DNA from: a virus
Strand: one strand, 5' to 3'
DNA length: 64,000 nucleotides
Virus record (IMG/VR): IMGVR_UViG_3300044950_000375
Location: 17,509 to 81,508 of that record
Shown here: positions 1-52,644 of the stretch, one piece after another
Numbering within the stretch: the first letter of the stretch is position 1
Layout: every line of letters begins with the position of its first letter
Program-made: the position numbers and the translations under genes
The notes under the pieces: generated by a model
The model's database searches: none
Told to the model about the DNA's origin: nothing
Seen by the model: the letters and a program-made list of their open reading frames with translations, nothing else

Positions 1-109
1 CTGGCTGGTATTGCACTAGATCAAAGTGCTGTTGCACCAGGTGAGCAATAGCACCTTGTGTGAAATTGGGGTAGTCCTCCTCTAAATATAACAATTTAAT
101 TTTGGTCAT
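1..109 (-). CDS. Partial CDS at window edge, N terminus only, unknown
   Basis: Only the first 36 codons are present; the gene runs off the left edge. Reading the minus strand from the ATG at 107-109 gives a peptide beginning MTKIKLLYLEEDYPNFTQGA with no stop. The start overlaps the last 14 bases of the upstream radical SAM gene, as expected for a translationally coupled operon, and an AT-rich GAGGAGG stretch lies just inside the coding region. The hydrophobic first strand (IKLLYL) resembles the first beta-strand of a Rossmann-like fold, but this is too little to name a family. Confidence 0.6.
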   Translation of the reverse strand, partial: MTKIKLLYLEEDYPNFTQGAIAHLVQQHFDLVQYQP

Positions 110-1316
110 TGTGATAGTTTAAAATATCAGCCAATTCTGGTGCAACGTCACGCAAGTTTTGTTCTCGTTTGCGATCCAAGTCACGTATCTTCATGTTGGT
201 CATAAACCCATCAGTACTTGCACCATTATTCATAAAGTCAATAATGCGATTGAATTCTTCACGGTATTTAGATGGCACTGACGCCGAGCGCAAATGTTCT
301 GTAATTTGCGCCTTGGCCGAGTCTGGCAGTGTGGCAATTGAAAAATACCATGCGTCATGCATGATATTCCAGTACATAAAGTCAAACCGTTGCAGTGCTA
401 TCCAGTGTGCTAGTTGGTCAATATAACGCACATTAAACACATTGACGGTACTACAGCATTGTAAACGTAGGTTGGGCAGAGAATCTTTGAGATATTGAAA
501 ACTTGTAATGTTGTCCAGCACCACAGCCCAATCTGCATTGGTGCGTTGATATTCAAATCTTGCACCCACATCGTCAATTGAGAATGCTACTTCTACTGTT
601 TTAAAATGTCGCCAAATTTCTGGTCCGCGTGTGGGCCATTGTGTGCCATTTGTGTTGTAGTGTATTTCAACTTGATGTGCAATACCACGATCCACAATGC
701 CTTGCAACATATCAAAGTGTTCAGCAATCATAAATGGTTCACCACCGGTGAATTCAATGTAACGTATGTCATTTAAACAGGTGTCAATTTCTGTCCAAAA
801 TGATTGATTTTCTCTGGGCCAAGCGCCGGCACGAAGCATTTGATAGGGAAATGATTTCTTTTTGTCTTCATCAGGCGGCATATCATTGAGCTCTTCTGTG
901 GCAAATTGGCTTGATGACCATGATCCGCATATACGGCATTTTAAATTGCAGATGTTGCCCAGTTTTAAATCCAAGAACATTAAGGGCTTGGCGTCTGCGG
1001 TCCATTCACCTGATATGCCCATGTGCTTCATTCTGTCTAGTGTGTGCATGCGTTTTGACGTGCGTCCTGACCGTTCTTCCATCCAGCATTTTCTACAGGT
1101 CTGTGGTTTCTTGCCTGCTAAAAATTCTTCACGCAGTTCAGTCATTGCCCGAGAGTTTTGTATGCTTGCAAAGTCAGCTGTGAGCAATGAAAACTTTTCA
1201 CCGTTATCATCCGTCAGTTCGTCGTCGGCTAAACAACATGGGCGCACTGTGCCAATGGGCGAAGCTTCTAGGCTAACCCAGGGCAATACGCAAAATTTAT
1301 CGTGTGGTATGTTCAT
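96..1316 (-). CDS. Radical SAM protein with N-terminal twitch/SPASM-like domain (PCC type)
   Basis: A 406-residue radical SAM enzyme. The core motif CNLKCRIC (Cys123, Cys127, Cys130) would bind the 4Fe-4S cluster that cleaves S-adenosylmethionine, and a GGEP motif follows downstream, as in many radical SAM barrels. Before the core lies a cysteine set arranged as FC-x-LPW (Cys9), PCC (Cys27/28) and CRKC (Cys74/77). This is the pattern of a SPASM/twitch auxiliary cluster domain, which is normally C-terminal but is N-terminal here. Its start overlaps the stop of the next upstream radical SAM gene by four bases (ATGA), so the two are probably translated together. The substrate is unknown. The family assignment is secure from motifs; the function is not. 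Confidence 0.88.
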   Translation of the reverse strand: MNIPHDKFCVLPWVSLEASPIGTVRPCCLADDELTDDNGEKFSLLTADFASIQNSRAMTELREEFLAGKKPQTCRKCWMEERSGRTSKRMHTLDRMKHMGISGEWTADAKPLMFLDLKLGNICNLKCRICGSWSSSQFATEELNDMPPDEDKKKSFPYQMLRAGAWPRENQSFWTEIDTCLNDIRYIEFTGGEPFMIAEHFDMLQGIVDRGIAHQVEIHYNTNGTQWPTRGPEIWRHFKTVEVAFSIDDVGARFEYQRTNADWAVVLDNITSFQYLKDSLPNLRLQCCSTVNVFNVRYIDQLAHWIALQRFDFMYWNIMHDAWYFSIATLPDSAKAQITEHLRSASVPSKYREEFNRIIDFMNNGASTDGFMTNMKIRDLDRKREQNLRDVAPELADILNYHNDQN

Positions 1317-2689
1317 AAGTTATATTTTTTAAATTCATCAACCAGCCAGGGAAATACTGTGGGCCAATGTGTGTTACGTCTGTGATCCATTGTATTTAAA
1401 AAATCAAACAACTCTCGTATTTGTTTTGGCTTGGGCCCACCATGTTTACTTTGTTTTGCTATGCCCACAAGATAGTGTTTGCTGGCAATCTCTTCTGGCG
1501 TTTGGGTGGGTTTTAAACTGATTGCAAGATCAAAGTCTTCACAAAATATATCTCCAAACAAATCAATAAACATGTGATCAGGACTGTTAACAGAGTTTTG
1601 ATAGTGATATACTTTTCTTTTAAGATTCCATTGATTTATCTTGTGCAACAAGTCTGGTAATGTCTTTACAGTTAACGGAGTCACAGTGGAAGAAACAATC
1701 AAATTGATCCAAGATTGATCCAGCAAATATTCAAAGTTTCTTTCCCATTCTTGTAAGTTTAAGGGATATCGCACATATTCCTGTGGTGCACCCCAACAGT
1801 CCAGGCTGGCAGTAATTTCAAATTCTCTAATGCTTCCACGGTCAATCAACTTGCGAACTCGTTGCACTATCTTTTGCAGGTATGGCAATCGAGCATTTAA
1901 ATTTGTAAACATTTGCAATTTAAGCTCAGGCGCTGGATACTGCTCAAATAATGTAAGGCATTGTTCTAACTCTGGCTGATACAGTGGTTCACCGCCCAGG
2001 ATGTTGAACACTGTGAGTGTATGCCCGTGCAGTTTCAACCATTCAAATAGTTTTTGTTTGTTGCTTTCGATGTTGGTGCTTTTGGCAAATGCAGGAATAC
2101 CATGCCGCACATTCTCAGCGTCCCATAAACTGCTAAAATGCGGGCCGCAATAAAGACATTTTAAATTACAAGCGTTGTCAAAATACACTTCTAGTATTCT
2201 GGGAGTAACATGTACTGCCACAGGATTCTGATCCAGTTCAGGTGGTGCATGTATACCGGGAAAATCCAAGTTTGTTATTCTATCACTTTGACCACCTGCT
2301 GCTTCAATGTCTTGACAGTAGGTGCATCCTTTTGCAGGCCATTTGCCGTCAAGCATTCTCATGCGATCATCTATTTTGGTAGCTGTGTTATGAAAATCAA
2401 AGTCAGAACCAAATTTATGCCCATTGGTTCTATGACAACTGGCAGTTTGATCAGTGGTTAAAAATATTGTACTCCAGGTCCATTTGAGTTGGCAAGCTGT
2501 GTTGCTCACAATGGGAAAACGTTTGTTAATCAATTTGGATTTGTTTTGAAAACTGACCGGAACATATCCAAATTGATTGATACATTCTGATTGAATTGAT
2601 TCTGGAAGTTGTGTGAAATTTTCTTCAGACTCGCAATCCGGCCACTGTGGGTCACGTACAGCTGAATAAAACTCTTTCCATGTGCTCAT
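1313..2689 (-). CDS. Radical SAM protein with N-terminal twitch-like domain (KW/SCH type)
   Basis: A 458-residue radical SAM enzyme with core motif CNLKCLYC (Cys174, Cys178, Cys181) followed by a GGEP motif. The N-terminal auxiliary cysteines are Cys66 (in ACQLKW), Cys85 (in ASCHRT) and the pair Cys122/Cys125 (CTYC), with the sequence HNT between them. This differs from the PCC-type neighbours: there is one central cysteine followed by His instead of a Cys-Cys pair. The same arrangement recurs in the genes at 3935-5266 and 6306-7703, so these three form a subfamily. ATGA overlaps on both sides place it inside a tight operon. Substrate unknown. Confidence 0.87.
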   Translation of the reverse strand: MSTWKEFYSAVRDPQWPDCESEENFTQLPESIQSECINQFGYVPVSFQNKSKLINKRFPIVSNTACQLKWTWSTIFLTTDQTASCHRTNGHKFGSDFDFHNTATKIDDRMRMLDGKWPAKGCTYCQDIEAAGGQSDRITNLDFPGIHAPPELDQNPVAVHVTPRILEVYFDNACNLKCLYCGPHFSSLWDAENVRHGIPAFAKSTNIESNKQKLFEWLKLHGHTLTVFNILGGEPLYQPELEQCLTLFEQYPAPELKLQMFTNLNARLPYLQKIVQRVRKLIDRGSIREFEITASLDCWGAPQEYVRYPLNLQEWERNFEYLLDQSWINLIVSSTVTPLTVKTLPDLLHKINQWNLKRKVYHYQNSVNSPDHMFIDLFGDIFCEDFDLAISLKPTQTPEEIASKHYLVGIAKQSKHGGPKPKQIRELFDFLNTMDHRRNTHWPTVFPWLVDEFKKYNL

Positions 2690-3945
2690 TTTAATGCTGC
2701 TAATTCTGGAATTGTATCCAGGATGTTTTCCGTTCGTATAGCATCAAGTTCGTTTGTTTTGCGCCAGAATGTATCTATTAGGTGTGTGTTGTCTGTGGCA
2801 TTCATAAAGGTAATAGCTGATTCAAAACCTTGTGTGGCACGATTTAAAGGGTCCTGCCCGTGAAGCCATTGGATATGACTTTGATACAGTGCTGTGAGTG
2901 AGTGTTTGTATTCAGCTGTGGCAATGTCTATTCTATAGTGTACAGGATCTTGCAGGATATTTACATTTAAATCCTGTGCGCGGATCAGACCTTTTTCCAC
3001 CCAGTCACGATGGAAATTGGGCAGGTGCCAGGCATTCATTATGCTCAAGGTAGGTGAAATGTAGAAATCCACTTCAGGGCACACACGCAACATATCACGT
3101 CTGTTCTGTTCTACTACGGCCCAGTCTGTGCCTTTTCTAATGTATTCGCCACGGCTACCCGATGCGTCTAGACTTGCACCCACTGCCACTGATCGAAACT
3201 GTTTCCAGTATTCAAATACACTATTGCCTTTTAAATCAGTGTGTGTGAAGTTTGTGTTGTAGATCAGTCGCACATCAAAGCGTTTGCGACGGACCAGCTC
3301 GTCTAGAATGCGGTAGTGTTCTTCCATCAACAGTGGCTCACCACCGGCAAAGTAGATTTGTTCTACATAATCCAAATGGGGCTCCAGTTGCGACCACATG
3401 TCTGTTTCCGTGCGGCCAGCATAGTTAAGAACTGTGTTGCGAGCTTTCCAGTCACCGCCTGCTAGTTTCACTTGATCTTGATACCATTGTGAGCTAAAGA
3501 TATGCCCACATGATCTACACTTTAAATTGCATAGGTTTGAAAAACGAATATCCCAGTAAGTCATTTCAAATGGATTTTCCGCCAGCTTCTTTATGTGATG
3601 TCCATGATGTTTGTTGGCTGACTTACGGCCTGAAAAGAATCCTGACTCTTCCTGCTCATAACAGCGTGTGCAGGCGGCGTGTGGCGTTTCGCTCAACATA
3701 TCTGCACGTAGTTTCTGCATGGGTGCATCCTGCCATATTTCTGCCAGTGTAGTTGTACGGCAATTGCCCACTATGCCTGGTTTCATTTCAGCATGGCAAC
3801 AGGGATATGCTTCGCCAGTGGGATAGGCGTGTAAATGAATCCAAGGATAGATGCAAAAGGTCTTGGACTCTTTTAATAAGAATTCTTCACGTTTTGTTAA
3901 TTCTGTGGGTCTTACTAGATCTGTTGAGTTGTAATTATAGCTCAT
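2686..3945 (-). CDS. Radical SAM protein with N-terminal twitch/SPASM-like domain (PCC type)
   Basis: A 419-residue radical SAM enzyme. The core motif CNLKCRSC holds Cys139, Cys143 and Cys146, with GGEP downstream. The N-terminal auxiliary cysteines are Cys31 (FCIYPW), Cys49/50 (PCC) and Cys92/95 (CTRC), followed by an EESG motif and SGRKSANKH. It is closest in layout to the gene at 96-1316 and to the plus-strand gene at 44839-46452. It overlaps the downstream gene by four bases and the upstream gene by eleven. Internal TGEAYPCCH spacing matches SPASM-type cluster domains, supporting a second iron-sulfur cluster. Substrate unknown. Confidence 0.88.
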   Translation of the reverse strand: MSYNYNSTDLVRPTELTKREEFLLKESKTFCIYPWIHLHAYPTGEAYPCCHAEMKPGIVGNCRTTTLAEIWQDAPMQKLRADMLSETPHAACTRCYEQEESGFFSGRKSANKHHGHHIKKLAENPFEMTYWDIRFSNLCNLKCRSCGHIFSSQWYQDQVKLAGGDWKARNTVLNYAGRTETDMWSQLEPHLDYVEQIYFAGGEPLLMEEHYRILDELVRRKRFDVRLIYNTNFTHTDLKGNSVFEYWKQFRSVAVGASLDASGSRGEYIRKGTDWAVVEQNRRDMLRVCPEVDFYISPTLSIMNAWHLPNFHRDWVEKGLIRAQDLNVNILQDPVHYRIDIATAEYKHSLTALYQSHIQWLHGQDPLNRATQGFESAITFMNATDNTHLIDTFWRKTNELDAIRTENILDTIPELAALK

Positions 3946-5266
3946 TGTACCATTCTATTAAGTTGGGAAACGCAGTACCAAAGTCTTTATTTCGTCGTTG
4001 ATCATATTGTGTATAAAACTGTTTAAAATCATTTAGCAGTTTGGGCATTTCAAATGCGTCTGAATGCGGAGTTTTCACTACATCTAAGTAATCAATTAAT
4101 CTTTGTAGATGATTGATCTCATGTTCGTGTAAGAATTCACTTTGGCTGTTTTGTGTGAGCCAAGTTTCTAATACTGTTTTGTAGTGTGTTTTTGATGCGT
4201 CTGGCAGTATCAGCGGGCTTTGAAATGATGGAAAGCGCAGAATATTTAATGTGAATGACACAGCATCGCGCCCGTATTCTGTTTTCCATTGCAGTATGCA
4301 TTCCAGCAATTGATCCAGGCTGTCCAGGCACAGTGCGTTAATGGTACACATCACATGTATGCCGCGGAACTGTCCAGAGTCTAGCAGTCTTTTGACAGTA
4401 TTAGCCCAACTGTCCCACTCGAGCCCGTCACGAATGTATTCGGCTTGCAGTCCGACTGCTTCATTTGAAGTGTACAAATCAATTGCCATGCCTTTTGTGC
4501 TTGAGAGCAAACGGTCGATGTCCACTTGTGATCCCAGGTTACTATTGATAGCCAAGCGTGTGCTACTCTTGCCTGAATTTGTTTTAAACCAGTCAATGAG
4601 CCGCCAGGTGTGAGCAGACATGAGGGGTTCTCCTCCGGTGATTCTGAGCTCTTGCAGTGTGCGATGCAGATCCGACTCCCACCACTTAAAAAATGCATCA
4701 ATGTAAGGATTGCTTTCTCCATAATCGTAAAGTTGTGCGTTAGCATGATCATGGGTAAAATGGTTGCGACCATCACTGACCAAGTTCTGGTAAGCTCCGT
4801 TGCGTCGGATGTCTTTAACCCATGTTGAACTGAAAGCTGGATTACAATAGCTACAAGCAAACTGACAAGTGCGATCAAAAGCGATCTCAAGAGTTCTAAG
4901 GTTGACGTCTTCAGTGTATGGTGTATTTCTAGCTTCATTTAGGGCCTCTATGGGATATATCTTTGATTTGTACACACGGTCACTCACAGCATCGCGACCC
5001 ATGTCTTCAATTTTCCAACAGTACTCGCAGCCAGGGGGACGCTCCCCTGCGATCATCTTGCGACGATCTTCTTTCTTTTGATCGGTATTGTGCAGCAGCC
5101 TAGAGTTGATACTGACTTTATCTTTGTCGATCAAATGGGCTGGCGGGTGATGACAACTTGTGGTCTGTCCACTTCCTAACCAAATGGTCGCGTTGTACCA
5201 TTTTGCTGCACAAAAACTGGCTGAGAGAGGGTCTAATACTGTGTGTTTGAATTCTAAATCATTCAT
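3935..5266 (-). CDS. Radical SAM protein with N-terminal twitch-like domain (KW/SCH type)
   Basis: A 443-residue radical SAM enzyme with core motif CQFACSYC (Cys134, Cys138, Cys141) and GGEP downstream. The N-terminal auxiliary set is Cys19 (FCAAKW), Cys38 (SCHHPP) and Cys80/83 (CEYC), with LLHNT between. It resembles the gene at 6306-7703 strongly in both halves (KW, SCxHPP, HNT, CEYCW, SDR, NPY), so the two are probably ancient duplicates. It overlaps both neighbours (four and eleven bases). A long out-of-frame reading frame lies inside it but has no family features. Substrate unknown. Confidence 0.87.
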   Translation of the reverse strand: MNDLEFKHTVLDPLSASFCAAKWYNATIWLGSGQTTSCHHPPAHLIDKDKVSINSRLLHNTDQKKEDRRKMIAGERPPGCEYCWKIEDMGRDAVSDRVYKSKIYPIEALNEARNTPYTEDVNLRTLEIAFDRTCQFACSYCNPAFSSTWVKDIRRNGAYQNLVSDGRNHFTHDHANAQLYDYGESNPYIDAFFKWWESDLHRTLQELRITGGEPLMSAHTWRLIDWFKTNSGKSSTRLAINSNLGSQVDIDRLLSSTKGMAIDLYTSNEAVGLQAEYIRDGLEWDSWANTVKRLLDSGQFRGIHVMCTINALCLDSLDQLLECILQWKTEYGRDAVSFTLNILRFPSFQSPLILPDASKTHYKTVLETWLTQNSQSEFLHEHEINHLQRLIDYLDVVKTPHSDAFEMPKLLNDFKQFYTQYDQRRNKDFGTAFPNLIEWYNEL

Positions 5267-6306
5267 TTGTTTGAGTTGATAAATTGAAAGAATCTCGCGG
5301 GCAACTGGTCCATGTGCTGACGAGCAAACTCTTGAAGATGCTGTTGATTGTATTTACAAATGGATTCCGCTGCCTGGACAAAAGCCCCAAGGTCTTGACT
5401 GCACAGGTCCTGGATAGTGTGGACCATGCGATCCATGCGATCTTGGTTGTTATCTAACTGATCAAATGTTTCATCAATCAAACTGTGAAACGTTTGGAAC
5501 CCAAGGTCACGCAGATCACGATAGAATCCGTAATTGGCCACAGCAACAAACGGGTGGCCAATAGCAAGTGGTTTACACATTTTTTCTGAAAACAAACTCC
5601 ACGGATAGTTATAAACAGTTTCTGTAACTACTGAAAAATAAGTGTCAATATATGGCTCAGGTTTAATGTAAATTTCTCCCCATTCGTTATTGAACAATTG
5701 TGCTTTTACATACCCTGATTCCACAGCAGTGCCGTGATATCTATCAACTTCGTAATAGGCAGGCAACAATCGAATTGGCCTTAGATGATCATCAAGATTG
5801 GTCCACAGAGCACCATCAAGCAGGCCCAATTGCTCCAGCTGATTTAGTATAGCACATCTATGCGGTCGACCGCGACCATTTAGGCACAAAAAAGAATAGG
5901 GTTTTGTGAGTTTGGAAAAGATTTCGGGTGTGCGTTTGCAGGCTTCTTTATTTTCTTCATATCTAAAAGGTTGTGTTAGAAAATGTTCAAACAGCATGCA
6001 ATTGTATTCAGGAGGCATGCGACCACCACCTATCAGTTGAATTTGGCCGCCAAGCACCAGATCTTCAACGCCATATTTTCTTAGGTGCCATAATAAAGTT
6101 TCTGAACCTTCTGCAGGATTGGCAAATATAATTTGACATTGCTCACACATGCTTCTCACACGATGGCCGTTCAGTCGCAGTTGCTCACGACCTATCAAAT
6201 ACGTGGCTCCAGGCACCACAGGTAGTTTTTCAAATTCATAATACAATTCGTCAGCGTAAGGGTGCAAAAACTCAGTGAGCTCAGTGCAAGCGTCAAGATA
6301 AAACAT
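5263..6306 (-). CDS. Unknown phage protein, possibly glycosyltransferase-like
   Basis: About 347 residues, not securely recognised. The C-terminal third contains LFSEKMCKPLAIGHPFVAVA, then a Tyr/Leu-Gly-Phe-rich stretch ending in IDETFD. Motifs of the form SEK-x-x-KP-x-x-x-G-x-PF followed by LG-F-x-TF and DE-x-(Y/F)D occur in GT10-like and related phage glycosyltransferases, so a transferase is plausible but unproven. The start could be the ATG at 6321 or the internal ATG at 6306. I chose 6306 because it makes a TAATG junction with the upstream stop and leaves the same fold. It sits between two radical SAM genes, so it may act on the same substrate. Confidence 0.6.
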   Translation of the reverse strand: MFYLDACTELTEFLHPYADELYYEFEKLPVVPGATYLIGREQLRLNGHRVRSMCEQCQIIFANPAEGSETLLWHLRKYGVEDLVLGGQIQLIGGGRMPPEYNCMLFEHFLTQPFRYEENKEACKRTPEIFSKLTKPYSFLCLNGRGRPHRCAILNQLEQLGLLDGALWTNLDDHLRPIRLLPAYYEVDRYHGTAVESGYVKAQLFNNEWGEIYIKPEPYIDTYFSVVTETVYNYPWSLFSEKMCKPLAIGHPFVAVANYGFYRDLRDLGFQTFHSLIDETFDQLDNNQDRMDRMVHTIQDLCSQDLGAFVQAAESICKYNQQHLQEFARQHMDQLPARFFQFINSNK

Positions 6307-7703
6307 TAACGGTGACTCCAATATTCACATTCTGCCCACCATGACTTCATTTCGGGAAAGGTTTTTAAAAAGTCAGTGCCTCTGCGTCGATCGTGTTCCT
6401 GAAAGAATCTATAAAAGTCTGCCTTGGCTTGGGAATGATCTTTGTCCTGCCCTGCTCGCATCCACGCAATATCTCTATCCAACCGTGCTATTTCGTAGTC
6501 TTTGAATCCGTGGAATGGATCTTCGGGGGTTTCACTCTGTCGTATCATCCAGGCCCACAAGTGTTCCAGCCGGTCGGCATAGGCTTCAGGTAGGATTTGC
6601 AAGCTCTGCCAAGCAGGTTCACGCAGTACAGGTGTGTCAAACCACACACGCTGATAGGTCCGTGAGTATGTGTTACGCAAGCCCAAGATGCCAGCAAACA
6701 AGTTTTCCAAGCTGGTCACTGATAAGTTGTTCATAGTAACAATAAATGTTAAGCTATTGTAACTAGGCACTTCTGTTAGGAATTGATTTACTCTATCCCA
6801 TAGCAGGTCAAAATCAAGTCCGTGGCGCATGTATTCTGCTTGTGAGCCCCATCCGTCTAAGCTCACATACTGCATGAAATGTTCGATACGCCCATCGCAT
6901 AGTTGTTTCACATAGCCCAGATATTTTTGCCATGACTTTTCATCCACAGAGAAGTTTGATGTAACATTCAAATGCAGTTTGGCAGACGGATTGGCCAACA
7001 CATGATCAAACACTCTATATGTGTTTTTATCTAGCAGGGGTTCCCCGCCTGTCATGCGGAAGTGTACAAGCTCGGGATACAGAGTAGGCCACCACTCCCA
7101 GAATGCTTCTACATAAGGGTTATGCTCTCTAACCGGTATAACCCGGCGATCTCCACCAAAATGCCCAGGATCATTGTGAACACGAGCAGTAGGGTAGCCG
7201 CCCGATCGGTCCACTTCTTGTTGCCAGCTGCTAGAGAATTGCGGACTGCAATAACTGCACATGAGATTACACACATTATTAAAATTAACCTCAACGTAGC
7301 TAGGGATAACGTCATTTTCTTCTCCTGTAGAGTTCTGGATCTGTGCAAAGTCCACAGCGGCCCAGGGCTCGCCTGATCGATAGTGTCTATCACTCAGTTT
7401 GTTTTCTGCTTCCATGTTCCAGCAGTATTCACACTCTGCGGGCTTTTCGTTCTGTAGCATCATCACACGTTGCGCTTTCTTGTGCGGTGTGTTGTGCAAG
7501 GATCCAGGATTGGCTGCAAGATTTTCCACAGGTATCTTGTGCAGTGGCGGATGGTAACAGGAGTTGTTGAGTCCTGTGGGCAAGTGCAGGCTGACCTGTT
7601 TCCATTTAGCAAGACACAGCGCAGGTCCTAGATTCTCTTTCATCTGTTCAGCAGAGTTTAAGAAACGACTTTTGTTGTCTACTGTTTCGTCGCCTTTGTT
7701 CAT
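6306..7703 (-). CDS. Radical SAM protein with N-terminal twitch-like domain (KW/SCY type)
   Basis: A 465-residue radical SAM enzyme. The core motif CNLMCSYC carries Cys145, Cys149 and Cys152, followed by SPQFSSSW and a GGEP motif. N-terminal auxiliary cysteines are Cys30 (LCLAKW), Cys49 (SCYHPP) and Cys91/94 (CEYC), with LHNTPHKKAQR between. It is the longest of the five clustered copies and pairs with the gene at 3935-5266. Its ATG overlaps the upstream stop by four bases. It is the first radical SAM gene transcribed in this minus-strand run. Substrate unknown. Confidence 0.87.
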   Translation of the reverse strand: MNKGDETVDNKSRFLNSAEQMKENLGPALCLAKWKQVSLHLPTGLNNSCYHPPLHKIPVENLAANPGSLHNTPHKKAQRVMMLQNEKPAECEYCWNMEAENKLSDRHYRSGEPWAAVDFAQIQNSTGEENDVIPSYVEVNFNNVCNLMCSYCSPQFSSSWQQEVDRSGGYPTARVHNDPGHFGGDRRVIPVREHNPYVEAFWEWWPTLYPELVHFRMTGGEPLLDKNTYRVFDHVLANPSAKLHLNVTSNFSVDEKSWQKYLGYVKQLCDGRIEHFMQYVSLDGWGSQAEYMRHGLDFDLLWDRVNQFLTEVPSYNSLTFIVTMNNLSVTSLENLFAGILGLRNTYSRTYQRVWFDTPVLREPAWQSLQILPEAYADRLEHLWAWMIRQSETPEDPFHGFKDYEIARLDRDIAWMRAGQDKDHSQAKADFYRFFQEHDRRRGTDFLKTFPEMKSWWAECEYWSHR

Positions 7704-8251
7704 ATTGTCAATAGTTGTTGTTTGTAAAGATCATCAATTGGTGCCTCAGCACCATAGTTTTCATAGCAATCCCATGCAAAATCAAACCAGAAATTTTTAA
7801 TATCCAATTCTTTGCGCATGATGTCACCAAAGGGTGTGGTATCTGTAGCAATGTCAATTAGTACATCGCAGTCCCAGTCTTGTGTTTTATAGTAGTCTTG
7901 ATGCCACACAATCATGTCAAACATATGAGATACTTGTTGTTGTTGACTGCAAGGCTGCCAATGATATTTCATTTCTACTTCCCATTCTCTACAAAGACTT
8001 GGTTTCAAATCAAATTTAATTTTTCTTATTTCGTGACCTGGCCATAATCGCTTGATGTTGGCAGTGTTTAATGTATGAGTTATTTGTATTGTATTAACGT
8101 CAAACAATTGAGTTGTAATACAAGTATCCAATGCATATCGTATGGGCATGGAATCATTGTGCATGTGAGCACCACGTTTGCCAAAAAATCGATTTTGCAA
8201 AAACAATTTGTAACGATGGCCTCCGCTGCCCGGATAAAATCCAACAATCAT
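7700..8251 (-). CDS. Unknown protein with glycine-rich N-terminal loop
   Basis: A 183-residue protein with no family I can name. It opens with MIVGFYPGSGGHRYKLFLQN: a beta-strand, a glycine-rich loop and a helix, as in P-loop-like or sulfotransferase-like folds, although the canonical Lys-Ser/Thr of a Walker A motif is missing. The gene at 47462-48262, in the other radical SAM island, opens in the same way (a strand, YPSGG, then GHFINAVL), suggesting a shared family. The rest is rich in Trp, Asp and aromatic residues. It overlaps both neighbours by four bases and so is co-translated with the radical SAM and sulfotransferase-like genes. Confidence 0.6.
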   Translation of the reverse strand: MIVGFYPGSGGHRYKLFLQNRFFGKRGAHMHNDSMPIRYALDTCITTQLFDVNTIQITHTLNTANIKRLWPGHEIRKIKFDLKPSLCREWEVEMKYHWQPCSQQQQVSHMFDMIVWHQDYYKTQDWDCDVLIDIATDTTPFGDIMRKELDIKNFWFDFAWDCYENYGAEAPIDDLYKQQLLTI

Positions 8252-9339
8252 AGATTGCCTTTGAGATCACTGTTTAACAGTTTTTGTTGAGAAATGTCTG
8301 CATAAGTTAGTGTGTTGCCGTGATTGTGTGTCCAAGCACTGTGCTCAATCAGTGCTTTATGATTCATTTGGTCTGCTGTGTAAGGCAAAGCATATGAACT
8401 GGGATTGATTTGTGTCCATTTATTGTAGTATTCAAGGCAGGCTGGTGAATTGGCAATCAACTGTGTTTTTTGTTGCAGTGTATGAAGCTTGATTGGTACT
8501 CCAGAAACCAGTATGCCCTGATCTTGAAGATCCTGAATAGCTATTCTACAACGAGTATAAAGATCAATATTGCTAGACATAAATTCTTTTTCTTCATTGG
8601 AGAACACATGATCAAAAGGCACCAAGCTCAGCAAAAAGTGCATGCGATTCCAATCAGTCCAGGTAATATCCCAACGATCATGCCAGGTCCGACCTGGCAT
8701 GGGTTTTTGAAAAACTCTTAGGTTCAAAATATACTGCTCAAGATCAGCAAGATCTCTTTCATATTCAAAATAACTGTTGACTTGAAAGTGACGGTCTACC
8801 CATTCCATGTACTCCTGATACTGATTTAGATATTTTTCAATCATTTCTGCTTGCACAGTTACTGGATTGGATAAAATTTTGTTGTAGATTGTGTGTTTTT
8901 CTTCAAACGAGTAAACGTTTAGTTTTTTAGCTTCCACTGCAATGCACCAACTCATTACATGTTCAAACAAATTCTTTCGACGAGCTGCAATAATATAAAA
9001 GTTTTCATTGAGGTATTTGTAAAACGCCAGTTGATCGTTTGTGCTGTCTTGACGCTTCTTTAGGTGATAATGTGCCAGACGACTCACAATATCGTGATCA
9101 CAGTTATCAATCATACCAGTTATGGTTTGCAAAGTTTGATGGTAGCCCCAGCCGTCTTGTTTTTTGCCTATAACTGATTGGTTGAACGTTTCGTTGTGAT
9201 AACTTACTAGGCCGTTGGTCAACTCATGCAGATTAATTGTTAGTGGATTGTAGTTTTCATTGATGTTTGCATAGATTGTGATCAATCGTTGCAATAATGT
9301 TGACCCCACTCGATCCGGAGTAAGTATTAGAACATTCAT
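8248..9339 (-). CDS. Sulfotransferase-like P-loop protein
   Basis: A 363-residue protein whose N terminus, MNVLILTPDRVGSTLLQRLI, matches the 5'-phosphosulfate-binding loop of sulfotransferases (a strand, then a loop with Gly-Ser-Thr, then a helix; residues 7-19). This family transfers sulfate from PAPS to hydroxyls or amines of sugars or proteins. The remainder (aromatic, with the motif RTWHDRWD around residue 220) is not diagnostic. The gene heads the minus-strand radical SAM run, and its ATG is separated by only 11 bases from the ATG of a divergently transcribed SGNH hydrolase. A sulfotransferase-like fold is likely; actual sulfotransfer is inferred. Confidence 0.62.
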   Translation of the reverse strand: MNVLILTPDRVGSTLLQRLITIYANINENYNPLTINLHELTNGLVSYHNETFNQSVIGKKQDGWGYHQTLQTITGMIDNCDHDIVSRLAHYHLKKRQDSTNDQLAFYKYLNENFYIIAARRKNLFEHVMSWCIAVEAKKLNVYSFEEKHTIYNKILSNPVTVQAEMIEKYLNQYQEYMEWVDRHFQVNSYFEYERDLADLEQYILNLRVFQKPMPGRTWHDRWDITWTDWNRMHFLLSLVPFDHVFSNEEKEFMSSNIDLYTRCRIAIQDLQDQGILVSGVPIKLHTLQQKTQLIANSPACLEYYNKWTQINPSSYALPYTADQMNHKALIEHSAWTHNHGNTLTYADISQQKLLNSDLKGNL

Positions 9340-9350
9340 TAAAAATATTT

Positions 9351-10058
9351 ATGTACCTAGATTTTGTTTCTCAAAAGATCAACATTCCATTTTATGCCAA
9401 TTTACAGACTGACATCCTGGGCATGGACAGCAAACAGCACTGCTTAAACGCAGAACTATTTAATGCTTGGCCCTTAATAACTTATCAATTCAATCAAGTG
9501 GGATTTCGCACTCACAGCATTGACAAATTTGATCCTAACGCAGTTTTAGTGCTAGGCGATAGTTTTACGCTTGGCCTAGGGGTCAATAGTGCTGATCGTT
9601 TTTCAGACATCATTGAACAGCGTATAAAACATCAGGTGCTAAACTTCAGTTTAAATGGGGCAAGCAATGATTGGATTGCGCGAAAACTCCAACAACTATT
9701 GACCGTGTTTCAACCAAGAGCTATTGTTGTACATTATACATTCAGTCATCGCAGAGAACGACCTAATTTGGATTGGTTAGACGACGAGCGCACTGAATGT
9801 GAACCATTTTATTCATCTCAAGAAAATTTTGATAACTGGGCCGCAAACTTTAACAATATTTGTAGTATGACCAAGCATGTTGCATTAATTCATAGCTTTA
9901 TACCAAACTGGCATGATCACACTGTGAACTATTCTAATTTTGGACTCAATGTACTAACACCACAACATCAAATTGATCATGCTCGTGACGGATTTCATTA
10001 CGGGCCGCTTACACATCAACTGTTGGCTGATAAAATTACCAGCCTTCTTGCTGCCTAA
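9351..10058 (+). CDS. SGNH/GDSL-type hydrolase
   Basis: A 235-residue protein with the block I motif VLVLGDSFTLGLG near residue 65 (GDS with the catalytic Ser). A C-terminal DGFHYGPLTHQLLADKI carries the Asp-x-x-His pair expected for block V. SGNH enzymes are esterases or acetyl hydrolases that often trim acyl groups from sugars. It is the only plus-strand gene among about 43 kb of minus-strand genes. Its start lies 11 bases from the divergent sulfotransferase-like start, and its 3' end overlaps the convergent glycosyltransferase by 23 bases. A second in-frame ATG exists at 9423, but starting there would remove conserved-looking N-terminal sequence. Confidence 0.78.
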   Translation: MYLDFVSQKINIPFYANLQTDILGMDSKQHCLNAELFNAWPLITYQFNQVGFRTHSIDKFDPNAVLVLGDSFTLGLGVNSADRFSDIIEQRIKHQVLNFSLNGASNDWIARKLQQLLTVFQPRAIVVHYTFSHRRERPNLDWLDDERTECEPFYSSQENFDNWAANFNNICSMTKHVALIHSFIPNWHDHTVNYSNFGLNVLTPQHQIDHARDGFHYGPLTHQLLADKITSLLAA

Positions 10059-10968
10059 TAACATCAATCTCGCGGGTCATTATGCCTTGGTTGTGCCAGT
10101 TGGATCTGTAGTGCTTCTTAAAGAACTCGCTTTGTTCTGCTTCCATCACAATCATGGGCAAGCCTAACTGTGTGTTTAAATCCTCTGCCAGTCGTCCGGC
10201 CAACAGTCTAGGTTCTGACGTTTCCACAGTTCGCCACAGTTCAGCTAATGCTTCAAAGTTTTGTACTTGAGTGTGATCCCACTGTGTCAGCATGGTCATG
10301 TATGTGCCTTGACGTGCGCCGGCAATGGCCCAGTAGCCGTGCTCTGCGTCAGCACCCACGTTGTGCCAAATGGTCAGGTGATCCAAGTTGCGTTGATGCA
10401 CACGATCTTGAAACTCTGCTGTGGTGGGTTTGCGTCCACGATCCAAGCACATCTTAACACCTTCACGAAAACCTGCACGCCAAGCATGAAATGCTGATCC
10501 ATTTGGGTAGGTAGTCGAGTAGCAGTTATACATGGGCCAGTATAAGGGATCAAAACAAAATTCTACTTGTGTTTCTGCTGTGCCGTCTGTGGCTTCGTGT
10601 GTACGCATGTTCTGTACAAAATCCTTTGTCCAACTACTGAGGCCGCCGTTGCCATACATCAATCCGTTGATATGGTTACGTGCCCGCCACCGGAACACAG
10701 CACTCTCATATTCTTTGCTAGAAAAAACAAGTGTTTGATTAAAGAACGCCGGATCGGGGAGATTGTCGCCATCGATGAGAATGAATCTATCCGTACTACT
10801 CGCCCGGGCTGCCGCTTTGTGAGCCGCATCGCTCCCCAGAACACCGTCCACCCTTCGAGCCCAAGGCACCATATTCCTAATCTTGATCCAAAATTCTTCT
10901 CGTTGTGGTTCATCGTATGTCAAGTATATGCAGTCTAAATCTGCTATGTCAATTTGATTCAAGGCCAT
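10036..10968 (-). CDS. GT-A-like glycosyltransferase
   Basis: A 310-residue protein. After an N-terminal strand (DCIYLTYDEP), the sequence RFILIDGDNLPDPAFF places an Asp-Gly-Asp at residues 66-68 at the end of a hydrophobic strand. This is the metal- and nucleotide-sugar-binding DxD signature of GT-A glycosyltransferases. The preceding segment VDGVLGSDAAHKAAARAS fits the helix that contacts the nucleotide. Its 3' end overlaps the convergent SGNH hydrolase gene, and its start overlaps the upstream 111-aa gene by 20 bases. The sugar and acceptor are unknown; with two further GT-like genes upstream it may glycosylate the tail fibres or a surface polymer. Confidence 0.65.
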   Translation of the reverse strand: MALNQIDIADLDCIYLTYDEPQREEFWIKIRNMVPWARRVDGVLGSDAAHKAAARASSTDRFILIDGDNLPDPAFFNQTLVFSSKEYESAVFRWRARNHINGLMYGNGGLSSWTKDFVQNMRTHEATDGTAETQVEFCFDPLYWPMYNCYSTTYPNGSAFHAWRAGFREGVKMCLDRGRKPTTAEFQDRVHQRNLDHLTIWHNVGADAEHGYWAIAGARQGTYMTMLTQWDHTQVQNFEALAELWRTVETSEPRLLAGRLAEDLNTQLGLPMIVMEAEQSEFFKKHYRSNWHNQGIMTREIDVIRQQEGW

Positions 10969-11284
10969 ATGTTTGTTTGCTCCATGGTGTTCCGTGTTGA
11001 GTGACTACAACCGCAACATTTTGCGGGTGGCACTGTGTACCTGTATTGCCGGGCACAAGTTTGTCTGATGTGCGAGTAGTAATGTATTTGAGCTTGCGGT
11101 CTACCACACGCACATTGGCAGGTGCCAGACCAAATGTTTCAGCATCAATGTCGATGTAATTACCTGGCAGGTCCTCCATGCTGTAATAAACTGGTTTGCC
11201 TGCATCATTGTAATACAAACGATAGAATACTGGTAACGGCTCGGGCGCAGAATGTAAAATGTCCCAAAACTCTTCAGGTGTCAT
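10949..11284 (-). CDS. Conserved small phage protein, unknown
   Basis: A 111-residue protein beginning MTPEEFWDILHSAPEPLPVF. I chose the ATG at 11282-11284 because it forms an ATGA overlap with the stop of the upstream gene; the longer alternative starting at 11362 would overlap that gene by 82 bases. The body (YRLYYNDAGKPVYYSMEDLP, then a GNYI stretch) resembles a hypothetical protein I recall from T4-like cyanophages near tail genes. No catalytic motif is visible. Its position between glycosyltransferase genes suggests a link to the same pathway, but this is inference only. Confidence 0.68.
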   Translation of the reverse strand: MTPEEFWDILHSAPEPLPVFYRLYYNDAGKPVYYSMEDLPGNYIDIDAETFGLAPANVRVVDRKLKYITTRTSDKLVPGNTGTQCHPQNVAVVVTQHGTPWSKQTYGLESN

Positions 11285-12051
11285 TGATGCCAGTCCTTTA
11301 CATGATAGTGAAAGGCACCCCATTGTGTTTGAGTTTGTATACGCATGGGATCCATTTCCCACACTAACTCATTGGTCCATTGCTGTGTCTTTGTGCCGGC
11401 ATGTGCTTGTTTCATGTGTACAATCCGTGGGTATGTAGCAAATGGCATGGTCACTAGTTCTCTGCCAATTATGTCTGCTGCCATTGCGTACACAAGATCA
11501 GTGCTGGGTACATCTTCGGGAAATTTAATCAGCTTTTTAAACTCTGACCAATTGGCAAATATATCACGCACCAGTACAAAGAAATCTCTGGCTGTTTCAC
11601 TCAATCGCCAGTAAGTTATAGCATTGTACACATCTGGTAAATTGTTAGCATCAAACACTTTTCTATAGTGCCTGGCTGTGCTGACCTGATCCTGCCATGT
11701 TCTGCAACCCGTAGATATCACAACATCTCGATGTCTAAACATAGTCCACCAGTGATCAATCGAACTGGCAATCATCATGTCTGCTTCTAGTTTGATAGTT
11801 TCGCGATAAGGCGAATTAAAAAACACTTGCCAGTCGTTTGCATACAAGTTATCGCGATCGATGTTCTCAATCACACGATAGTAATTGTACAAGGGATCGT
11901 TGGCATGAGTCTTGTCCGTGATCAAGCAAACACTGGCATGAGGATTCCATTGTTTGATTGTTTTTGTCAATGTTCTAGCACAATCCAAGTAGTCAACTTG
12001 GGGCGTGTTCAAGGCCATGATCACATAGCCTTGTTCTTCTATGGGTTTCAA
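11281..12051 (-). CDS. Glycosyltransferase-like protein (GT8-like fold)
   Basis: A 256-residue protein with a first strand YVIMALNT, then VDYLDCARTL, and a strand ending in KLEADMMI at residues 88-94. The same positions in the next gene upstream read LVLDADF, so the two are paralogues. Here the usual DxD is changed to Glu-Ala-Asp, which may still bind metal or may mark a degenerate enzyme. The start at 12051 overlaps the upstream gene by 59 bases. I keep it because it preserves the first beta-strand in alignment with the paralogue; an internal ATG at 12018 would cut it. Acceptor unknown. Confidence 0.6.
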   Translation of the reverse strand: MKPIEEQGYVIMALNTPQVDYLDCARTLTKTIKQWNPHASVCLITDKTHANDPLYNYYRVIENIDRDNLYANDWQVFFNSPYRETIKLEADMMIASSIDHWWTMFRHRDVVISTGCRTWQDQVSTARHYRKVFDANNLPDVYNAITYWRLSETARDFFVLVRDIFANWSEFKKLIKFPEDVPSTDLVYAMAADIIGRELVTMPFATYPRIVHMKQAHAGTKTQQWTNELVWEMDPMRIQTQTQWGAFHYHVKDWHQ

Positions 12052-12838
12052 CTATTGCTCCTAAATCTCTTTTGCCCATGGCATGAAAGTCCAGCCCAAC
12101 AATTGAGACTGTTTTACATTTACCTTGTGCATCTTGATACTCAATATTCCAGAACGTTTCGTTATCAAGCGTTAGTTTGTTTTCGGGTACTACACTGGGC
12201 ATGCCCCAGGGTATGGCATCTACTTTTAGTGTCTGGCCACTCACAATACCCAATGCTATGCTTAGTGCATAGTCGTTTCTGTATGTGGGTTGTGAGATGT
12301 GATAGAGATCTCTGTAGTGCTTCCAGTTCTCACGAATCATCTGCATGGCATCAAATATGTACTGTGCGGTGTTTGATCTGCGAAACATCATCACAGTAGC
12401 CCAGTACATGGGAAATTGGTATGTGCCAAAAGTATTTAAAAATTCTTCCTCAGGCCTAGCAAGATTGTATGCTGATCTAAAGCACATGAAATCTTGTGGG
12501 CTGTCAAGCACCACTTTTAAATCTTCACTATTGATCACAAAGTCAGCATCCAACACTAGAGTTTGCTCCCAAGGTGACAAGTTGTAAGCATCTACTCGGT
12601 TGCTGTTATGCCAAGGTACATGATCTTGTATATCACCAAACCAGCGTGAGTTTTCGCCCAACGGATCAGCATATATCACTTGATCAAACACAGTTTCGTT
12701 GCCGGCAGCAGGATTGTTTGTGACCACTGCTACAGGAATGTTTATGAACTGCTGGACTCGTTCAGCACAAAAGGCCGCCATGTCAAGATAGCGTGTGTGT
12801 TCAGTATCAAATGCAAAGATCAGTGCGCCAGTAGTCAT
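11993..12838 (-). CDS. Glycosyltransferase-like protein with DxD motif
   Basis: A 281-residue protein. An N-terminal strand (ALIFAFDTEHTRYLDMAAFC) precedes a typical nucleotide-sugar fold with IPVAVVTNN near residue 37 and LVLDADFVI near residue 95, giving an Asp-Ala-Asp (97-99) suited to Mn-dependent GT-A chemistry. The motif NRVDAYNLSPWEQTL just before it is common in glycogenin/GT8-like proteins, where the substrate pocket is formed. It overlaps the downstream paralogue by 59 bases and the upstream small gene by four. The product is probably a sugar transferase in the same pathway as the two downstream GT-like genes. Confidence 0.65.
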   Translation of the reverse strand: MTTGALIFAFDTEHTRYLDMAAFCAERVQQFINIPVAVVTNNPAAGNETVFDQVIYADPLGENSRWFGDIQDHVPWHNSNRVDAYNLSPWEQTLVLDADFVINSEDLKVVLDSPQDFMCFRSAYNLARPEEEFLNTFGTYQFPMYWATVMMFRRSNTAQYIFDAMQMIRENWKHYRDLYHISQPTYRNDYALSIALGIVSGQTLKVDAIPWGMPSVVPENKLTLDNETFWNIEYQDAQGKCKTVSIVGLDFHAMGKRDLGAIVETHRRTRLCDHGLEHAPS

Positions 12839-13140
12839 CGTTTGGTGCTAACTTCGTTGTGTTCCAACAGCCAAGCATTCATTTGCTCTTGCCAACGTTG
12901 CATGGCCAAGCTGCGCAGTTCTTCTGGACGTATTTGTACTGGAGTTTCATACAAGTCTAACAGAACTGCATCTCCTGGCGGCACAGTAGCCAAGATGTTT
13001 AGGAGTTCAGGACCAGCACGCCACATGCCACCGCTGTGGGCAAATATCATTCGGGCTTGATATTTCTCTTGAAGTATGCGCTTGGCAGCCACATGGTCAA
13101 ATCGAGCACGGCTGTGCGAAATTAAATCGTCAGTGTTCAT
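12835..13140 (-). CDS. Conserved small phage protein, unknown
   Basis: A 101-residue protein starting MNTDDLISHSRARFDHVAAK, then YQARMIFAHSGGMWRAGPEL. I recall similar proteins of unknown function in T4-like marine phages. An upstream in-frame ATG at 13182 would add 14 hydrophobic residues, but it lies within the terminator and promoter-like sequences, so 13140 is preferred. The gene is the first of the minus-strand glycosyltransferase/radical SAM run, directly behind a terminator and a sigma70-like promoter. Its stop overlaps the next gene by four bases. No catalytic motif was identified. Confidence 0.72.
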   Translation of the reverse strand: MNTDDLISHSRARFDHVAAKRILQEKYQARMIFAHSGGMWRAGPELLNILATVPPGDAVLLDLYETPVQIRPEELRSLAMQRWQEQMNAWLLEHNEVSTKR

Positions 13141-13146
13141 GTTACG

Positions 13147-13175
13147 ATTGTACAGGATGTACAGGGAAAAGTAAA
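13147..13175 (-). promoter_or_regulatory. Sigma70-like promoter with overlapping TGTACA repeat
   Basis: On the minus strand, TTTACT (13170-13175), a 17-base spacer and TACAAT (13147-13152) form a plausible promoter. The same -10 hexamer is used before gp55. The -10 overlaps TGTACA-TCC-TGTACA (13149-13163), two copies of a palindromic hexamer that look like an operator. The downstream ATG (13138-13140) begins only six bases after the -10, so the transcript would be leaderless or nearly so. Confidence 0.45.
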
Positions 13176-13195
13176 GGGGCAACAGCCCTTTTTGG
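13164..13195 (-). terminator. Rho-independent terminator after structural gene
   Basis: Directly after the stop of the 332-aa structural gene the minus strand reads AAAGGGC-TGTT-GCCCCTTT followed by ACTTTT. This gives a GC-containing stem with a short loop and a U-rich tail. It separates the late tail fibre genes from the glycosyltransferase/radical SAM run. Confidence 0.7.
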
Positions 13196-14194
13196 TTAAG
13201 CTACTGATGCAGTTACTGTGGGTGTGCCCCAGCTAGCCGATAGGTAAGTAGTTGATGGTGGCTGAATTAAAACCATTGTGGTTGGTGCAGTTCCAAAGCC
13301 AGAATAAGGAGAACCTGTGTTTGTGCCACCTGAAATGTTTGTGCTTTGGCCTGCGCCTGTTCGAGAGGAACTATTCCAAGTTGTGGTGAAAGTCAATGTA
13401 GTGGCACCAGCATTTTTGGCCGCAGTAGTCAAAATATAGTCACCAGTATACGGACTAACGTCATCGTTCAATTGAAATATTGATGTGGCAGCAGCGCCAG
13501 CAGTTAACGAATACCACCCAGTAGTTGTTGCTAGTGTGGTTTGAGTGCCACCTGTGCCACCTGCTCTTGTGGTTCCTGTGTAACTAGTGCCACCGATTGT
13601 TTGTGCAGCACCATTAACACGTCCGACAAATGCAAGACTGCCAACTTTTCCCACAAATGTGTTCCAGTCTGGATCATTATCTGTGCCAGTAGACGACTTG
13701 TTATAGTATACTCGAACAATGCCGCCTGCATTCCAAAAATATCTTGCTTGATCAGCTGACGGAAAAGTTACAGTGTGGGTAAATGTAATAGTCCAGGCAT
13801 TGGTGCCAGTACCAGTGCCTGATGTTTTAGATGTGGTTCCTAAAAAACTTTGATTTAATGTTCCGGCATTTGAAGCACTGCCGCGATTGGTATTGCAATT
13901 GGTAATGTCTGTGGCCACAGCCGCCAACACACTAATAGTTTGCCCCGCGGTAGGAGCAGATCGAGAAGTAATAGTTGTGCCGGTTTGACTGCCCATAGTG
14001 GCAAGTGTGTTGACCAAACTGGCCCAGTTTGTAGCTGTCACAGTGCCGCCAGCACTCACTGTACTTAGAGCACTTTGTCCCCAGCCACTGTCGGTTGAGC
14101 CTGTGCTCCAGATGTTATTGATGTTTGGCGATCCAGTGCTTACAAACCCGTTAAAGTCTGATGCTTGAATTAATCCACCGCTTGAATATGTCAT
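13196..14194 (-). CDS. Virion structural protein, Gly/Ser/Thr-rich, tail-fibre associated
   Basis: A 332-residue protein, very rich in Thr, Gly, Ser and Asn, with almost no charged residues in long stretches. It opens MTYSSGGLIQASDFNGFVST and has a region around residues 150-170 (YFWNAGGIVRVYYNKSS) recalling virion proteins of T4-like cyanophages. The low-complexity beta-rich composition fits a fibre or surface-exposed tail component. It lies directly downstream of the fibre gene (12-base gap with a GGAAC ribosome-binding stretch) and ends at a terminator. No enzymatic motif is visible. Confidence 0.7.
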   Translation of the reverse strand: MTYSSGGLIQASDFNGFVSTGSPNINNIWSTGSTDSGWGQSALSTVSAGGTVTATNWASLVNTLATMGSQTGTTITSRSAPTAGQTISVLAAVATDITNCNTNRGSASNAGTLNQSFLGTTSKTSGTGTGTNAWTITFTHTVTFPSADQARYFWNAGGIVRVYYNKSSTGTDNDPDWNTFVGKVGSLAFVGRVNGAAQTIGGTSYTGTTRAGGTGGTQTTLATTTGWYSLTAGAAATSIFQLNDDVSPYTGDYILTTAAKNAGATTLTFTTTWNSSSRTGAGQSTNISGGTNTGSPYSGFGTAPTTMVLIQPPSTTYLSASWGTPTVTASVA

Positions 14195-14206
14195 TGTTTG
14201 TTCCGA

Positions 14207-16017: not shown

Positions 16018-16025
16018 TATTTATA
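16018..16025 (-). promoter_or_regulatory. T4-type late promoter box
   Basis: The minus strand carries TATAAATA, 29 bases before the tail fibre ATG. It is followed by an AT-rich leader and the ribosome-binding stretch AGGAACAAGG. This is the exact T4 late consensus, in one of the few real intergenic gaps. Confidence 0.75.
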
Positions 16026-43945: not shown

Positions 43946-44842
43946 ATGACTTTATTACCAAAAGCGGCACCTCGTGTCAATTATCTAAACAACCGTGATA
44001 TTTTGAAAGAAATACACCACAGCAAGAACACCTATTGCTGGTATCGTGATCCTGTACAGGACCATCAATTTGATTTGATCCTGCCCGGCCTGGACAAAAT
44101 CAATCAACGCACTGTGGTTGAGGCAAGAAAAAATCGTGCTGATCGTATCAAACGCGAAACAGGCGAAGTAATTGATCAAAAGAAAATACCCAACACTGAC
44201 CTAGTTTTCAGGATCACCTGTTGGGATCACATCCCTAAGGCGCCTAAAAAAATTACCAAGGCCGAAGCCAAACGCAAAAAGCTAGAAGACATTTTTGAAC
44301 TAGATGATATTGCAGAAGATCCACTAGCAGACATTGTGGATGTGCCGGTGCTGGATCTAAATCATGTGCGAGTGAACTTTCCTCCGTTTGAACAGTATAG
44401 ATTGGATGAAGACAAAAAGCCTTACATTGTGGGCCGCTCACATTGGAAGGGCGATTTGGTCACAGGAGAGTTTTCCAAAGATCACGGCAACATGACTCGC
44501 AAGTTGGCTATGATGTTTATGAAACTGTGCGAACGCTATGCCACTCGATCAAACTGGCGTGGCTACACCTACAACGAGGAAATGCGTGGACAAGCTCTTT
44601 TACAACTCAGTCAAATTGGACTGCAATTTGACGAATCTAAATCGCAAAACCCCTTTGCTTACTATACCGCTGCTATCACTAATAGCTTTACACGGATTCT
44701 TAACATCGAAAAGAAAAATCAAAATATCAGAGATGACATCCTGGAAATGAACGGCTTGAACCCGTCATGGACTAGACAAAACTCCGGCAAAGCTGGTATG
44801 GCAGCCATGAGTGGTCCAGTGACCACCACATATGAAGAATGA
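43946..44842 (+). CDS. 55: Late transcription sigma factor gp55
   Basis: A 298-residue protein. The C-terminal part (from residue 183) carries the gp55 signature: helix LAMMFMKLCERYATRSNWRG, then YTYNEEMRGQALLQL, then DESKSQNPFAYYTAAITNSF and RILNIEKKNQ. This is the sigma region 2-like core that recognises TATAAATA. The first ~180 residues have no T4 equivalent (T4 gp55 is 185 aa); they are Lys/Asp-rich with ITKAEAKRKKLEDIFELDDI. The sliding-clamp-binding tail is not obvious. The gene has a sigma70-like promoter and a strong ribosome-binding site, and its stop overlaps the next ATG. Confidence 0.88.
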   Translation: MTLLPKAAPRVNYLNNRDILKEIHHSKNTYCWYRDPVQDHQFDLILPGLDKINQRTVVEARKNRADRIKRETGEVIDQKKIPNTDLVFRITCWDHIPKAPKKITKAEAKRKKLEDIFELDDIAEDPLADIVDVPVLDLNHVRVNFPPFEQYRLDEDKKPYIVGRSHWKGDLVTGEFSKDHGNMTRKLAMMFMKLCERYATRSNWRGYTYNEEMRGQALLQLSQIGLQFDESKSQNPFAYYTAAITNSFTRILNIEKKNQNIRDDILEMNGLNPSWTRQNSGKAGMAAMSGPVTTTYEE

Positions 44843-52610: not shown

Positions 52611-52644
52611 AAGGACTAACTATAGCACATACGCAAAATCACAC

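Follow-up and report, generated by a model that had tools for sequence, protein, structure and literature searches.

Why would a virus keep, end to end in a single row, five enzymes of a class that is oxygen-sensitive, requires iron–sulphur (Fe–S) clusters and S-adenosylmethionine (SAM), and performs chemistry that few other enzymes manage? The question is raised by a 64,000-nucleotide stretch of viral DNA, referred to here as the window, which covers bases 17509-81508 of the 81,508-base IMG/VR record IMGVR_UViG_3300044950_000375. At window positions 96-7703, on the minus strand, it holds five complete, open radical SAM reading frames of the kind with an N-terminal twitch domain (N-twitch), arranged head to tail, with a 352-amino-acid open reading frame (ORF) between the last two. 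The array belongs to an operon conserved among very large, water-borne phages, in which radical SAM genes are interleaved with those of sugar-transferring enzymes, and it most likely serves to decorate the virus particle, or else the infected cell, with an unusual sugar.

The array and its virus

Successive genes overlap by 4, 4, 11, 4 and 16 bases along the array, the last overlap holding if translation starts at TTG; with the ATG five codons further in it would shrink to 1 base. An earlier note on this DNA had described five radical SAM genes with complete CX3CX2C motifs joined by 4- to 16-base overlaps in a phage, and the ORFs, motifs and overlaps were all verified. A profile (hidden Markov model) check placed each protein in NF033640, the NCBIfam family N_Twi_rSAM (twitch domain-containing radical SAM protein), at 207-386 bits, and since all five scores exceed the curated cut-off of 170 bits a chance match is excluded. 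The phage context was likewise borne out, as PHROG matches to baseplate wedge, baseplate hub, portal, tape measure and late sigma factor proteins and to SbcC/SbcD homologues identify the source as a T4-like virus. The array genes and the two other N-twitch genes of the record are as follows, with counts of dereplicated loci as defined below.

96-1316, minus strand: rS1, N-twitch radical SAM, core; NF033640 333 bits; 45/45 dereplicated loci
1313-2689, minus strand: rS2, N-twitch radical SAM, accessory; NF033640 207 bits; 12/80 loci
2686-3945, minus strand: rS3, N-twitch radical SAM, core, the most conserved copy; NF033640 386 bits; 77-94% identity in 80 loci
3935-5266, minus strand: rS4, N-twitch radical SAM, core; NF033640 288 bits; 53/53 loci
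5263-6321, minus strand: GTd, predicted GT-B (GT10-like) glycosyltransferase, core; start TTG 6321 or ATG 6306; 51/53 loci
6306-7703, minus strand: rS5, N-twitch radical SAM, core; NF033640 319 bits; 53/53 loci
44839-46452, plus strand: rS6, seventh N-twitch gene, away from the cluster, adjoining the late sigma factor gene (PHROG neighbours); NF033640 269 bits
Record 13821-15110, just outside the window: rS0, N-twitch radical SAM, core; NF033640 over cut-off; 45/45 loci

Seven genes of the whole record thus exceed the NF033640 cut-off. With rS6 as bait no viral relatives were retrieved. Two more tandem radical SAM genes, of another type, follow the SbcC homologue on the plus strand (window 50755-51606 and 51600-52610).

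A conserved unit in related phages

With rS3 as bait, 80 viral loci were retrieved on contigs of up to 364 kb; the ORFs of all 80 were compared with the genes of the record, the loci were dereplicated to 55, and presence was counted where the flank suffices. rS3 is therefore present by construction, and the relatives, having been found through it, represent one broad phage group. Within this group the order rS5-GTd-rS4-rS3-rS1-rS0-u345-CbT, CbT being a carbamoyltransferase, is kept in 55/55 dereplicated loci. Beside the occupancies listed above, u345 is present in 43/43 and CbT in 42/43. u345 (L009 12791-13828, minus strand) has no family match, always overlaps rS0 and lies near N-twitch genes in 11 more distant loci; a PDB profile search with it returned nothing useful, and it is likely to be a partner protein.

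The earlier note had treated the five genes as a possible system, and the neighbourhood survey supports a conserved, ordered unit, but one with other boundaries: only four of the five are core, rS2 is an optional insert, and the fifth core copy, rS0, lies outside the window, so that the true conserved array reaches beyond the start first assigned to it. The same note considered so many enzymes of one class unusual for a phage. This did not stand, since 33 related virus records searched whole carry 5-17 N-twitch genes each (6 in Vibrio phage K566), and a T4-like marine contig with 12 radical SAM superfamily genes, TARA_ERS488813_N000010, had already been reported in 2017 (PMC5332604).

Are the copies old, and are they all in use? 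Paralogues share 19-33% identity (BLAST), and in a tree of 143 sequences the rS0 and rS2-rS5 orthogroups form exclusive clades with support of 0.92-1.0, the rS1 clade taking in one further phage sequence. Recent tandem duplication is ruled out by this low identity together with the separate orthogroup clades across phages. The three SAM-cluster and four N-terminal cysteines are invariant in 56-61 sequences per core gene (rS0 included) and in 11 sequences of rS2; in rS1 they are cysteines 9, 27, 74, 77 and 123/127/130, invariant in 58 sequences, and in rS3 the invariant twitch cysteines C31, C49, C92 and C95 mark the auxiliary cluster site, which is known here from sequence. The GGEP SAM-binding motif is invariant across all paralogues in the alignment, and omega values of 0.07-0.12 across the array (medians of 0.07-0.10 for the core radical SAM genes) indicate purifying selection. 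Invariant cluster cysteines and low omega rule out a decaying array and bear out the earlier proposal, made from the intact motifs alone, that it is maintained; the radical SAM genes are old, and strong selection acts on them. In the jumbo phages compared synonymous sites approach saturation, and because five copies are kept, unreplaced, across these phages the virus must gain from all five. Every paralogue has one extra invariant or nearly invariant cysteine, but its alignment position differs between paralogues, which rules out a shared extra catalytic cysteine and means that no common H-donor residue can be claimed.

The gene inside the array

The ORF at 5263-6321 had been noted only as one unknown gene between radical SAM genes. 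It is there, but it is no bystander: GTd belongs to the core and is predicted, from its model, to be a GT-B glycosyltransferase. Family-profile searches gave no family match. The AlphaFold model is confident (predicted local distance difference test, pLDDT, 91.8), and its best PDB matches in Foldseek are mostly GT-B enzymes (TarM, SdgB, FUT13, trehalose and glycogen synthases) at modest E values of ~2e-3 to 5e-3. A search of BFVD gave uncharacterised phage proteins as the closest matches; among the first to bear a glycosyltransferase name are one from Indivirus (E 4e-7) and a GT10 protein from mimivirus (E 4e-5).

GTd is also the least conserved core gene, with a median identity of 42%, and in one pair of phages nearly identical elsewhere in this stretch its allele has been swapped. 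A related locus, L023, matches the window at ~99-100% identity for long stretches flanking approximately window 2650-6400, and within that interval its GTd is a different one (44-66% DNA identity; an allele 42% identical to the GTd of the window), with rS4/rS3 at ~64-88%. In the same pair the tail gene tf1 has diverged too (~54-71%), and a short stretch of GT2/u137, two genes between tf1 and the array, slightly. From these sequences the difference looks like the exchange of a type-determining cassette.

Sugar genes and tail genes around the array

The genes between the array and the tail genes, and the first tail genes themselves, are the following.

7700-8251, minus strand: u183, accessory; no family match; few loci
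8248-9339, minus strand: accessory gene with a sulfotransferase-like P-loop start LILTPDRVGSTLL, a weak assignment by motif only; 6 loci
9351-10058, plus strand: SGNH/GDSL-like hydrolase, accessory; Pfam Lipase_GDSL E 8e-4, below gathering score
10036-10968, minus strand: GT1, putative GT-A-like transferase (DGDN motif), core; weak Glyco_tranf_2_3 match, E 0.05; 50/53 loci
10949-11362, minus strand: u137, kept beside GT1; 68 loci; no Pfam match
11281-12051, minus strand: GT2, putative GT-A glycosyltransferase, core; phrog_1903 (unknown function); 49/53 loci
11993-12838, minus strand: GT3, putative GT-A glycosyltransferase (DAD motif)
12835-13182, minus strand: u115, small conserved protein between the tail gene and the glycosyltransferases; 53 loci; no Pfam match
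13196-14194, minus strand: tf1, tail or fibre-like protein; 33% Ser+Thr; diverged along with GTd in L023
14207-15988, minus strand: tf2, virion structural protein upstream of the operon; phrog_14394; 21% Ser+Thr
16018-16025, minus strand: TATAAATA, T4-type late-promoter-like site before tf2

GT2 and GT3 together match glycogenin weakly by profile (E 0.01). The sulfotransferase label for 8248-9339 was not confirmed, there being no Pfam or PDB match. On the other side of the array, bases 1-17.6 kb of the record encode ThyX, an NAD epimerase, a DegT aminotransferase, a GDP-fucose-synthase-like epimerase, the carbamoyltransferase CbT and an amidinotransferase, AmT. CbT, which lies outside the window, carries both carbamoyltransferase domains (PF02543, N-terminal, E 1.6e-37; PF16861, C-terminal, E 6e-47) and matches TobZ, GdmN and the novobiocin carbamoyltransferases; AmT matches glycine (AGAT) and inosamine-phosphate (StrB) amidinotransferases, and the corresponding activities are predicted for both. 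Several proteins of this region appear to share the 'KTFKPI' region of GTd. A protein of 1068 amino acids, encoded at L009 4140-7346 (minus strand) and kept in related loci, has approximately nine W-rich repeats ending PPY(I/V)Y.FGNQ and a GT1-like C-terminal part.

The operon is co-directional with the tail genes and directly follows them on the same strand. The T4 late-promoter core TATAAATA precedes tf2 in 5/10 orthologues with enough flank; it also occurs near the accessory sulfotransferase-like gene in 2/6 loci, and was never seen before core cluster genes in the loci compared. Because the site precedes tf2 and no core cluster gene, late read-through transcription from the tail genes into the array is plausible. 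The Ser+Thr content of tf1 (median 30.5% in 54 orthologues, against 11.4% overall) makes it a candidate glycan acceptor. Further upstream, a single 5022-codon ORF (window 16818-31886, minus strand) lying between baseplate wedge and tail genes encodes a giant virion protein, and a SegE-like GIY-YIG homing endonuclease gene lies at window 52582-53073 (plus strand).

Independent contexts further afield agree with a link to sugars. In Vibrio phage K566 N-twitch genes are intermixed with GT8 and GT4-like genes, an Oligoflexia genome described below has them beside GT1 genes, and among 79 more distant viral loci sampled repeated arrays are found, in many of which the order GT3-GT2-GT1-then-radical SAM recurs. 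A contig of a Bdellovibrionia metagenome-assembled genome (MAG), L099, has eight N-twitch radical SAM matches in ~13 kb (275-13034), and is a cellular, or perhaps a prophage, counterpart.

What the radical enzymes may act on

The AlphaFold model of rS3 (pLDDT 81.4, with loops 53-62, 148-151 and 170-179 below 50, weak around the clusters) was compared with known structures. Its nearest folds are BlsE, a sugar decarboxylase, and anSME, and the N-terminal twitch profile matches the C-terminal twitch of the aminocyclitol enzyme BtrN, out of domain order. By sequence and fold the N-twitch enzymes fall between peptide-acting (anSME, SuiB) and sugar- or cyclitol-acting (BlsE, BtrN) enzymes.

The earlier note left the choice between a multi-step pathway and a set of enzymes with different targets; the context points to glycan tailoring. 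On balance we consider it probable that this is a late, tail-linked phage operon for glycan synthesis and tailoring, in which the radical enzymes edit sugars, and that it is directed to the virion more likely than to the host. We prefer this reading because the genomic context favours sugars where fold and sequence fit peptide or sugar enzymes alike; sugar as the radical SAM substrate, the virion as acceptor and late timing are all things that we infer. In such a scheme the predicted glycosyltransferases (GTd in the array, GT1-GT3 and others around it) would assemble sugars that the nucleoside diphosphate (NDP)-sugar epimerases and DegT aminotransferase supply or alter. Each of the five core N-twitch enzymes would perform its own radical reaction on sugar carbons (epimerisation, dehydration, deoxygenation or oxidation, for instance), and the carbamoyltransferase and amidinotransferase would cap hydroxyl and amino groups. 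The glycan would most likely be placed on the virion, the adjoining Ser/Thr-rich tail protein tf1 being the best candidate acceptor, and GTd allele swapping and optional genes would change its type. A more specific version we offer only tentatively, and it may well prove wrong: that the five N-twitch enzymes are non-redundant, work one after another or on different residues of a single glycan, and make sugars that cells are not known to contain, GTd exchange providing the type switching.

Several results weigh against a sugar-directed operon. The fold search with rS3 gives the peptide-acting anSME, SuiB and SkfB at similar scores, GT1 has no clear structural relative in a PDB profile search, and the glycan acceptor is a guess. 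A Pfam survey of the 79 more distant loci found no glycosyltransferase enrichment near N-twitch genes, the Pfam-recognised neighbours there being mostly radical SAM and Asp/Arg hydroxylase-like genes. With custom profiles, near/far enrichment of GTd-type and GT1-type genes in these loci is weak (p ~0.04, uncorrected), and for the GT2/GT3-type, carbamoyltransferase and amidinotransferase families there is none.

The closest competitor keeps the sugars and moves the target: in the course of infection the same operon would remodel host surface polysaccharide or lipopolysaccharide, which might serve to block superinfection or aid release. Serotype conversion is a known role of phage glycosyltransferases (PMC12619734), and in an Oligoflexia MAG N-twitch genes sit among GT1s, an ABC-2 transporter and APS kinase/PAPS reductase (sulfate-activation) genes, apparently a cellular polysaccharide export locus. 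Set against this, the cluster genes scanned include no recognisable flippase or membrane acyltransferase, and an operon directly after tail genes, without a late-promoter-like site of its own, suits the time of virion assembly; we regard a host-surface target as unlikely.

Doubtful to a greater degree is the proposal that the radical SAM enzymes modify protein side chains (cross-links like those of ribosomally synthesised and post-translationally modified peptides, epimerised residues, hydroxylations) and that the glycosyltransferases act on the same proteins. Twitch/SPASM enzymes such as anSME, SuiB and SkfB are often peptide-acting, Asp/Arg hydroxylase-like genes occur near N-twitch genes in other phages, and tf1 would be an obvious abundant acceptor. 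However, the overlapping core genes leave no space for a precursor-peptide gene within the array, and carbamoyl- and amidinotransferases and NDP-sugar enzymes suit sugars better.

A DNA or nucleotide hypermodification pathway protecting phage DNA is very improbable. Such pathways do employ both radical SAM enzymes and glycosyltransferases, but the array is joined to tail genes and not to replication genes, and hypermodification is disfavoured because no homologue of the thymidylate synthase/deoxynucleoside monophosphate hydroxymethylase family was found in seven related records of 286-364 kb (0/7, controls positive). QueC gave no match over cut-off; searches for ADDT and TET/JBP were empty and, having no positive control, are uninformative. 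Least credible of all is the synthesis, in infected cells, of a diffusible aminoglycoside-like small molecule, since the resemblance of the carbamoyl-, amidino- and aminotransferases and BtrN-like twitch enzymes to aminoglycoside tailoring sets is offset by the linkage to tail genes, by a late timing that would leave the product little use, and by the lack of any recognised cyclitol synthase, export or resistance gene in the families scanned.

The ordered and compact gene set offers a route to a first function for the N-twitch family, and near-identical phages with swapped GTd alleles provide a natural comparison for the role of the glycan. As the isolated Vibrio phages K566 and K567 have related genes, the question can be addressed in cultured phage.

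Comparison with known systems

A literature search from which most subscription journals were missing found nothing that describes this phage system or gives its function, and one, of incomplete coverage, on phage radical SAM arrays with glycosyltransferases, carbamoyl- or amidinotransferases found no relevant paper; the Moraphage paper does not mention radical SAM genes. Many radical SAM genes in a single phage came up in two passages of PMC5332604 and in no other text found. To our knowledge, the virion glycosylation of mycobacteriophages has no such set of radical SAM enzymes and carbamoyl- or amidinotransferases. That system (Freeman et al. 2023, as cited in PMC12619734) shares with the present one the placing of phage glycosyltransferase genes near structural genes, here with a Ser/Thr-rich neighbour, and differs in being reported there as glycosyltransferase-based, whereas the acceptor here is a candidate.

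The marine contig TARA_ERS488813_N000010 is similar in being a T4-like virus genome with many radical SAM genes; these were read as part of Fe–S cluster metabolism, and the passages on them name no cluster, gene order, glycosyltransferase link or N-twitch core (PMC5332604). NF033640 itself accommodates all five array proteins and two others of the record above its cut-off, but it is a sequence subfamily without assigned function, and its definition includes no five-member operon with glycosyltransferases. Among characterised enzymes the likeness is to those of the BtrN and BlsE type, which also combine a radical SAM core with a twitch-like auxiliary cluster domain (BtrN by profile, BlsE by fold); the similarity is remote, and any correspondence of substrates would rest on analogy. 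The two arrangements are permuted, the twitch of BtrN lying C-terminal to the core and that of the array enzymes N-terminal to it.

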